From Opitutia bacterium (GTDB lineage Bacteria > Verrucomicrobiota > Verrucomicrobiia > Opitutales > Opitutaceae), in NCBI GenBank assembly GCA_016217545.1, contig JACRHT010000011.1, positions 186,001 to 250,000 on the forward strand: a stretch of DNA of 64,000 bases. The letters are read 5' to 3'. The notes under the pieces are model-generated. The model did no database searches. It saw nothing but the letters and a program-made list of their open reading frames with translations, and was not told the DNA's origin. Numbering within the stretch: the stretch's first letter is position 1; each line of letters opens with the position of its first letter. A program made the position numbers and the translations under genes. This document shows positions 38,906-60,850 of this stretch, piece by piece.

Positions 38906-38932
38906 GCCGGGTAACCCAATAGGTTACTCGGC
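38906..38932. other. Palindrome between convergent genes, possible bidirectional terminator
   Basis: GCCGGGTAACC (38906-38916) pairs with GGTTACTCGGC (38922-38932) with one G-U pair and a 5-base loop. It lies in the 73-base gap between the TonB-domain gene and tcdA, which converge here. There is no T-run on either side, so a terminator role is only inferred from position. Confidence 0.4.
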
Positions 38933-53874: not shown

Positions 53875-54459
53875 TCAACGCCCGCCGCGCAGGCATTCCT
53901 CCACCGCTGCGATCGCCGCGGGCTCGCGCTCGGCCCAATCGCCGCGGATCCACGTGTAAGGCAGGTGCCGTCGCTCCAACGCGCCGTGCCAGACACGCCG
54001 GCATTTCTCGCGATCCTCCGGATTGGGGAAACACCGCTGCGGATCCGGCGCGAACGGCACGTCGGTGTCGAGCAGCAGGTAGAGCGCGTAGTTGCGGCAG
54101 CGTTTCTCCGCGCCGCGCCGCACCTCGTCCGGCGTCGTCCCGTAAAGCAGGTCGCTCCACAACATCGTCGTCAGCGCGTCCGTGTCGCAGATCACCAGCG
54201 GCCGGGCACTCGCTCCAATTTGCCGTAATACGGCAAATTGCCCGGCCGCGCGCGCGACGGCCTCGTCCTCGCGCCGCCACTGCTCGCGCGCGATCGGCAC
54301 CATGTCCTCCAGCCCGAGCACGCCGCCCTGCGCGTCGCAATGTTCGCGCGCATACTCGGCCACGACCGGCGCGCCGAAATGCGCGCCGAGCTTCGCCGCG
54401 AGTTCGGTTTTGCCGGTCGACTCCGGTCCGTAGACCGCGATGCGCAACACCTCGCTCAC
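53875..54459 (-). CDS. NadR-like AAA ATPase / nicotinamide riboside kinase
   Basis: The 194-residue protein has an intact P-loop (AVYGPESTGKTELAAKLGA) and Walker B-like LVICDTDALTTMLWSDLLYG, as in the kinase half of NadR; the NMN adenylyltransferase and DNA-binding halves are absent. It starts at a GTG overlapping pnuC by four bases, so it is coupled to the transporter and probably phosphorylates imported nicotinamide riboside. Residues of about QFAVLRQIGASAR, just before Walker B, are encoded by a perfect palindrome and appear to be an in-frame insertion. An alternative reading is a plain AAA ATPase of unknown substrate. Confidence 0.82.
   Translation of the reverse strand: MSEVLRIAVYGPESTGKTELAAKLGAHFGAPVVAEYAREHCDAQGGVLGLEDMVPIAREQWRREDEAVARAAGQFAVLRQIGASARPLVICDTDALTTMLWSDLLYGTTPDEVRRGAEKRCRNYALYLLLDTDVPFAPDPQRCFPNPEDREKCRRVWHGALERRHLPYTWIRGDWAEREPAAIAAVEECLRGGR
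54198..54249. repeat. Nested palindromic element inside the NadR-like gene
   Basis: CAATTTGCCGTA (54216-54227) and TACGGCAAATTG (54229-54240) form a perfect 12-bp inverted repeat around one base. Outside it, GCGGCCGGG (54198-54206) and CCCGGCCGC (54241-54249) form a second 9-bp inverted pair. The AT-rich core stands out in this GC-rich gene. The coding frame is kept across the element. Confidence 0.75.
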
Positions 54460-55031
54460 GCGCGCGCCTCCTGCGGCATCGAGCGCCGCCACGCGTGCCA
54501 GCCCCACACCGCCATCGCCCAGAAAATCACATAGAGCCCGGCCGTCAGCCGCAGGTCCTTGGCCCAATACACGCCGACGGCGACCGTGTTCACCACGATC
54601 CAGCCCGCCCAGTTCTCCAGAATCTTCCGCGCCTGCAGCCATTGCGCGATGAGGCTGAACACGAGAATGAACGCGTCCCAATACGGCAGCGCCGCGTCCG
54701 TCGTGCGATGCATGAACGTCCCCCACGCCGCCGTCGCCACCGCGCCGACCGCGCACCAGCCCGCGATCGCGCCAGCGGCGAGCCGCGTCACCGGCAACTC
54801 GCTGTGCGCCGCCGTGTGCTTGCCGCGCAACCAATGCGCCCAGCCGTAGGCCTGAACGGCGAAGAAACACGCCTGCAGGATCGCATCCGAGTAGAGCTTG
54901 GCGTCGAAAAACACCCAGCCGTAGACCGCGACCTGCACCAGCCCGACCGGCCAGCCCCAGATATTCTCGCGGATCATCAGCCACACGCCGATGACGCCGA
55001 GCACGGTGCCGAGGATTTCCCAAACGCTCAT
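54456..55031 (-). CDS. pnuC: Nicotinamide riboside transporter PnuC
   Basis: The 191-residue protein has about seven hydrophobic segments and the PnuC pattern WLMIRENIWGWPVGLVQVAV, YGWVFFDAKLYSDAILQ, YGWAHWLRG and WIVVNTVAVGVYWAKDL. PnuC proteins take up nicotinamide riboside, driven by intracellular phosphorylation. The overlapping NadR-like kinase gene downstream fits that model; homologues for thiamine (PnuT) exist but the kinase context favours NAD salvage. No riboswitch was recognised in the short upstream gap. Confidence 0.9.
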   Translation of the reverse strand: MSVWEILGTVLGVIGVWLMIRENIWGWPVGLVQVAVYGWVFFDAKLYSDAILQACFFAVQAYGWAHWLRGKHTAAHSELPVTRLAAGAIAGWCAVGAVATAAWGTFMHRTTDAALPYWDAFILVFSLIAQWLQARKILENWAGWIVVNTVAVGVYWAKDLRLTAGLYVIFWAMAVWGWHAWRRSMPQEARA

Positions 55032-60775: not shown

Positions 60776-60850
60776 GGTGGAGCGCGTTGACCCCAACGCG
60801 CTCATGAATTCTCGCTCGCGAACAGCGCGTTGAGGTCAACGCGCTCCACC
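60776..60850. repeat. REP/BIME-like double-hairpin element
   Basis: Two 27-base arms (60776-60802 and 60824-60850) are inverted copies with one mismatch. The outer 17 bases (GGTGGAGCGCGTTGACC arm) pair perfectly. Each arm is also an internal hairpin: AGCGCGTTG with CAACGCGCT (60781-60789/60794-60802 and 60824-60832/60837-60845). The 21-base centre is AT-containing. It fills the 268-base gap between the GT2 and msrA genes; nothing else was seen there. Confidence 0.75.

Follow-up and report, generated by a model that had tools for sequence, protein, structure and literature searches.

An in-frame palindrome of a NadR-like kinase gene belongs to a dispersed, probably mobile family of TAATA-centred hairpins in Opitutaceae

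Introduction

Palindromic elements that reside in frame within genes are best known from Rickettsia, while cyanobacterial small dispersed repeats and MITEs are examples of very small, non-coding, dispersed DNA. Repeats of a similar kind are the REPs of the GTAG and CGTC superfamilies, which the sections of Di Nocera et al. (2013; PMC3733652) considered here describe as palindromes of 20-40 bp with varying paired stems, forming dimers at distances mostly of 20-100 bp (in some cases the spacers are alike in length but not in sequence), placed between convergent or tandem genes and in some cases within ORFs. The same sections name Opitutus terrae as richest in intragenic GTAG repeats, so that REPs inside genes of this species are already on record, and they count RPE-4 and RPE-6 among the CGTC repeats. 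REPINs, as described by Bertels and Rainey (2011; PMC3116915), are inverted pairs of palindromes at a fixed distance, with ends better conserved than the spacer. A further article (PMC8266576) treats recognition by TnpAREP.

The present study concerns a stretch of 64,000 nucleotides (the window) in which a gene for a NadR-like kinase contains a palindrome of a type called F1. This type, a second one (F2) and the other palindromes found in the corresponding kinase loops of related genomes form one superfamily with a near-constant TAnTA centre and a variable paired stem. An earlier reading made from the sequence alone had proposed the Rickettsia elements as an analogue, and for behaviour the comparison holds: here too, palindromic repeats (F2 copies, and F1 copies in the kinase, Nnr and ChrA genes) lie in frame in genes of probably working proteins. 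The host lineage is a different one, and the likeness is drawn from behaviour, not sequence. With MITEs and cyanobacterial repeats the family shares very small size, non-coding nature and dispersal; no related insertion sequence was found here, and the empty sites are too diverged to reveal target duplications. The resemblance to GTAG and CGTC REPs, as they appear in the cited sections of PMC3733652, includes size, paired varying stems, dimers, intragenic copies and, for F2-like copies, a location between convergent or tandem genes (F1-like copies lack such a bias); unlike these REPs, the TAATA family has no tag, has a near-constant loop and shows no link to the transposase genes tested. Like the REPINs of PMC3116915, F2 forms inverted doublets at preferred spacings with ends better conserved than the spacer; unlike them, it has three spacing classes and copies within genes, no RAYT association was found, and F1 is mostly single. 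The family thus extends in-frame palindromic elements to a case in which the known tags are absent, the loop is near-constant and the stems covary. No publication of the exact cores or peptides was found, and none of the titles listed dealt with untagged TAATA palindromes; most subscription journals lay outside this search, and an earlier description is possible.

Results

The palindrome and its host gene

The features of the window referred to below are the following (G000 denotes the window's own genome, 5.09 Mb; other G numbers are the relatives compared with it).

53875-54459, minus strand: gene with a NadR-like ribosylnicotinamide kinase domain (Pfam AAA_28), 194 aa, hosting the F1 palindrome in frame
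54456-55031, minus strand: pnuC (nicotinamide riboside / NMN transporter), overlapping the kinase start
54217-54239, no strand assigned: core element of type F1, AATTTGCCG-TAATA-CGGCAAATT; its arms of 12 bp reach 54216-54240
54198-54208, plus strand: left outer arm, locus-specific, absent from other F1 copies
54239-54249, plus strand: right outer arm, locus-specific, absent from other F1 copies
38911-38927, no strand assigned: second superfamily member in the window, an F2 variant, GTAACCCAATAGGTTAC, between two convergent ORFs

The kinase protein exceeds the AAA_28 cut-off, and NadR models match it below their curated cut-offs; the closest NadR chain among solved structures (E 8.6e-4) is too weak a match to place the loop. 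Within the frame of this 194-aa minus-strand ORF, where the sequence-only reading had correctly put it, the palindrome stretch is translated as GQFAVLRQIGAS. The palindrome codons are FAVLRQI, slightly upstream of VICDTDAL, which we take to be Walker B. The arms (54216-54227 and 54229-54240) are 12 nt each, fully complementary (100%) and separated by a 1-nt spacer, so that the perfect 12-bp inverted repeat around a single base first described is borne out, as is its AT-rich core, with G or C at 8 positions of 23 bp (counted by eye). The second pair, described as a nested one of 9 bp, does exist, but its arms are 11 nt long and, being separated by 30 nt, leave the inner palindrome off centre. 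The supposed 51-bp nested unit is not common to other copies: about 19-25 bp are shared, further arms differ by locus, and the longer unit is ruled out as a repeat since only the core recurs elsewhere.

With up to 3 mismatches, AATTTGCCGTANTACGGCAAATT has a single match in the window, against an average of 0.01 in 100 shuffles (one shuffle with one match). Inverted pairs of at least 11 nt within 60 bp number 36 in the window, and those among the 25 listed are mostly imperfect. Taken as a single strand, the 69 nt around the palindrome fold more stably than all of 200 shuffles, with z-scores of -4.4 as RNA and -5.7 as DNA. No Rfam family matched at gathering threshold in 20 loci (57,952 bases). 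Elsewhere in the window, there is a 27-nt inverted pair at 60776-60850 (GGTGGAGCGCGTTGACC...). Its core is found several times in G006, and the pair resembles a GTGG-tagged REP of the kind of O. terrae GTAG-20.

Dispersal of the F1 core

The 19-bp F1 core, searched with up to two mismatches, occupies nine places in its own genome (eight exact, one with one mismatch; reversed control 0). The core is therefore dispersed and does not occur only once, which settles the genome-wide search proposed by the sequence-only reading. Copies are mostly single, not paired. Three of the nine are intragenic, all in frame: in the kinase, in Nnr (the bifunctional NAD(P)H-hydrate epimerase/dehydratase) and in the chromate transporter ChrA. 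Among 189 genomes, and with one mismatch allowed, the core was present in three, namely its own (9 copies), G007 (10) and G001 (1); the reversed control gave one match, in G135. An exact scan of 84,980 species genomes returned four stretches, where about four exact matches would be expected by chance in 257 Gb (an estimate that assumes uniform base composition). One of them is Opitutus sp. isolate PR.011, identical over 220 bases around the G001 copy. The others are one Omnitrophota and two Saccharibacillus records (L049, L050, L051), and 17-base F1 cores were seen in three viral contigs (L052-L054); these occurrences may be due to chance.

The kinase loop in related genomes

Kinase orthologues were obtained as 13 sequences from 12 of the 13 genus genomes, with no match in G001. 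Six of the 13 (G012, G002b, G009, G005, G003 and G011) have a loop without palindrome, 10-15 residues shorter; the residues are thus extra relative to these orthologues, as had been suspected from the sequence, and are not carried by all of them. The loops of G007 and G006 hold two in-frame F2 copies (GTAACC-TAnTA-GGTTAC), those of G002a, G008 and G010 further TAnTA palindromes with one arm mismatch each, and that of G004 possibly a decayed one. In alignment, the window's F1 has its centre at zero offset from that of one F2 copy of G007, the nearest relative, namely whichever of the pair comes first in coding direction. The presence of different stems at one loop across species indicates a repeated or long-standing home of hairpins; a kinase tree computed without the loop is weakly supported and does not separate one occupation from several. 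Across a single genus the loop holds five different palindromes or is empty, and so offers a natural series in which to study how such elements arrive in genes, change there and depart without breaking them, and which enzyme reads the loop.

A near-constant centre with paired, variable stems

In our censuses, every one of the ten odd palindromes that had arms of at least 11 bp and a one-base spacer was centred on TAnTA, with differing stems; among shorter-armed odd palindromes other centres occur too. Pentamers were scored as palindromic when they had arms of at least 9 bp, one mismatch allowed. The fractions come from contiguous stretches; densities from the pair, placement, orthologue-core and intragenic site sets are biased by loci partly fetched for holding the element. 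Over 180 kb of the window's own contig (C11), 8 of 61 TAnTA pentamers lay in palindromes, whereas none of 15 other centres reached 1%; no palindromic TAnTA appeared in ten first-order Markov sequences made from the G007 stretch. The fractions were 4/18 in G015, 2/30 in G012, 4/73 in G006 and 9/101 in G007, and non-TAnTA centres in the same samples reached about 2% at most. Palindromic TAnTA was not found in the samples of G004 (97 kb, 0/29), G085 (100 kb, 0/40) and G139 (19 kb, 0/19); G004 has one at a laxer threshold.

The pattern AATTTNNCGTANTACGNNAAATT, in which two stem bases are left free on each side, occurs at 27 places in three of 252 family genomes. Among the 23 places listed, all 23 are complementary at both free positions; they represent three stem types, one of which, AATTTCACG, belongs to another genus (G015). 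Centre variants TAGTA and TACTA occur, making the centre near-constant, not invariant. In the frequent variant seen at 38911-38927 the TA/TA pair is broken, and this suggests a hairpin with YAATA as its loop as the actual unit.

Copies, pairs and placement of F2

F2 is present in 38 exact copies in its own genome, where allowing two mismatches raises the number to 64 places (control 0), and it was found in 38 of 200 family genomes and 17 of 49 genera (reversed control 0). Pairs were defined in loci of four species as neighbours no more than 90 bp apart with up to 3 mismatches. The 38 pairs so obtained fall into three spacings, 45-46 bp (5), 53-54 bp (10) and 65-69 bp (23); 29 of 35 pairs with A or T centres are inverted, some pairs being mutually orthologous. 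Their spacers are mostly dissimilar, with traces of one inner hairpin, and GAGTGA occurs in 12 of the 38 against 0.23 in random draws.

Within genes the spacings are 45, 54, 66 or 69, all multiples of three; those of intergenic pairs include 46, 53, 65, 67 and 68. All 22 intragenic F2 copies found, pair partners and orthologues included, read NL[LI]G, the sole stop-free frame; intragenic counts are lower bounds, the simple codon-usage caller used for gene calls having missed the kinase in G007. A gene named methyltransferase from Pfam has an F2 pair in G000, G007, G012 and G008. G006 has three copies there, and in both G002 and G003 a single intact copy is left beside one that is decayed or lost (the alignment rows of G004, G005 and G010 are uninformative, the last being in a wrong frame). 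Between genes, F2-like copies number 25 in convergent, 36 in tandem and 4 in divergent gaps, against a background of 53, 206 and 72 gaps. F1-like copies (2, 9 and 7, respectively) show no 3' bias.

Fate of copies at orthologous sites

Of eight sites in the 180-kb stretch of G000, four are kept in G007 (three F1 copies, and a neighbouring F3 that differs at a single base), one F6 copy and one F2 pair are missing from syntenic G007 DNA, and the kinase site has F2 instead. The F6 copy of G000 is intragenic and in frame, within a stretch 30 bases longer than that of G007. Two G007 copies of type F7 lie in places without alignment to G000. Because several copies are common to orthologous places, the movement may be old.

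For a broader comparison, 15 of 21 matches with clear register were kept by eye and six dropped; one of the 15 is the kinase site, with its different stems. Over the other 14, identity amounts to 222 of 224 positions for the 16 core bases and to 3378 of 4100 for the 150-base flanks, a contrast that overstates core conservation since a palindrome is required in both species. At the centre, three of these sites show A in one species and T in the other, and one shows A versus G. Intragenic copies retain codons that G007 uses very rarely (TTA 0.17, CTA 0.34 and ATA 0.27 per 1000), suggesting constraint on the DNA itself, or renewed copying, and not constraint on the peptide.

Nnr was compared in 13 genomes. 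The palindrome is intact in G000, G007 and G001, both arms having changed in step in G001; G006 and G012 have equal length and imperfect pairing; and the eight others are 2 residues (6 bases) shorter, without an intact palindrome. One of these shorter sequences, that of G008, has a TAAT-containing quasi-palindrome at the corresponding point. The five longer sequences form a clade (95/93; G009 left out). A 23-bp palindrome with a net gain of 6 bases would have overwritten native sequence or formed partly from it, and on these alignments the Nnr site is evidence against simple insertion. Over 99 copies, arms extend past the common core by a mean of 2.3 bp, partly into locus-specific sequence.

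Discussion

We consider it probable that the window palindrome belongs to a dispersed family of non-autonomous mobile hairpins, similar to REPINs, whose copies survive within genes provided that they are in frame. A copy comprises a stem of about 6-12 bp (longer in some genera) and a near-constant TAATA loop (TATTA on the opposite strand, with variants such as CAATA), stem sequences varying between subfamilies yet staying paired. In F2, two hairpins, often inverted and 45-46, 53-54 or 65-69 bp apart, flank the traces of a small inner hairpin in a REPIN-like arrangement. Copying would probably proceed on the folded single strand of DNA, by means of an enzyme provided in trans. F2 appears to settle near gene 3' ends, away from divergent gaps; in genes, copies lie in an open frame and, for most of the genes compared, in stretches of variable length between orthologues, and are translated as a short peptide that, judging from the otherwise intact genes, is probably harmless. 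After arrival, the stem would remain palindromic as the flanks drift. A site can also acquire another stem type, as seen at the kinase loop, perhaps by hairpin-templated repair or renewed copying. The sequence-only reading had postulated a mobile palindrome that entered a gene without breaking it. Dispersal, empty orthologues and in-frame copies speak for this part of the proposal; a clean insertion at this locus is one possibility: the centre coincides with that of one of the two F2 copies in G007, and Nnr sequences lacking the palindrome are shorter by only 6 bases.

It is also worth considering, as a tentative extension, that the palindromes represent an undescribed class of Opitutaceae hairpins recognised by the TAATA loop instead of by a tag or stem. 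Stems would then be free to change, and a dedicated enzyme might copy the hairpins and overwrite occupied sites, also in genes.

A special case of the REPIN-like explanation, whose odds overlap with it, is that these are ordinary REPs moved by RAYT transposases, the tag being lost or lying elsewhere. Size, inverted dimers, placement and intragenic copies all fit published descriptions of REPs, and Y1-transposase genes are available, with ten in the own genome and 21 in five relatives. We nevertheless regard it as rather doubtful. A GTAG or CGTC tag lies no more than 6 nt from a stem end in 12 of 142 copies, against 348 of 2840 random positions (12.3%), and is not enriched. No RAYT gene flanked by a TAATA hairpin was found at the 31 Y1_Tnp loci of these six genomes with flanks of up to 1.5 kb; the loci (97.8 kb) gave one weak TAnTA match, whereas the G007 density by itself predicts about 2, and nine of them have other hairpins with arms of at least 9. 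Against a mobile hairpin in general, no gene flanked by the TAATA hairpins was found, and the sites compared, which when empty are too diverged to show duplications, gave no instance of transposition, target duplication or excision. An autonomous element among the genes near neighbouring copies was rejected, the genes being ordinary-looking in nine loci inspected by eye. On contig C1 of G085 (723729-725730; L276, L281, L285), three Y1-transposase genes with identical scores and an even 836-base spacing are apparently a tandem triplication.

Chromosomal protein binding sites (matS, parS, Noc-like, or operators), selected at fixed places and in some cases within genes, would account for the agreement of cores over flanks at the 14 matched sites, for the very rare codons retained in intragenic copies, for the fixed spacings of F2 pairs and for the 7 of 18 F1-like intergenic copies that lie in divergent gaps. 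It is difficult to reconcile such sites with a single kinase loop that holds different stems in different species, with the absence of the F6 copy and the F2 pair of G000 from syntenic G007 DNA, or with the avoidance of divergent gaps by F2-like copies, and the core comparison, by presupposing a palindrome in both genomes, exaggerates conservation. We judge this explanation unlikely.

Palindromes might also arise locally, by template switching that perfects quasi-palindromes, in which case no mobile element would be needed. The net change of only 6 bases in Nnr, together with the quasi-palindrome of G008, the arms that run on past the core into partly locus-specific sequence and the arms that changed in step at orthologous sites are what this process would leave behind. 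It cannot, however, yield identical sequences of 17-25 bp at dozens of unrelated places or pairs at three spacings with a common inner motif, and as a source of the family it is very improbable; template switching may well act on copies after their arrival. A chance palindrome is ruled out by the shuffles, the genome-wide dispersal and the TAnTA-centre census.

Contig C11 of G000 (302 kb, 6% of the genome) holds four of the nine F1 copies. At L119 (1400-3017), four clustered F2 copies are accompanied by two hairpins with other stems; three of these F2 copies have common longer flanks, with CAAAG before and CTTGTG plus GGCCGAGCAAC after, and the cluster is perhaps a recent amplification.
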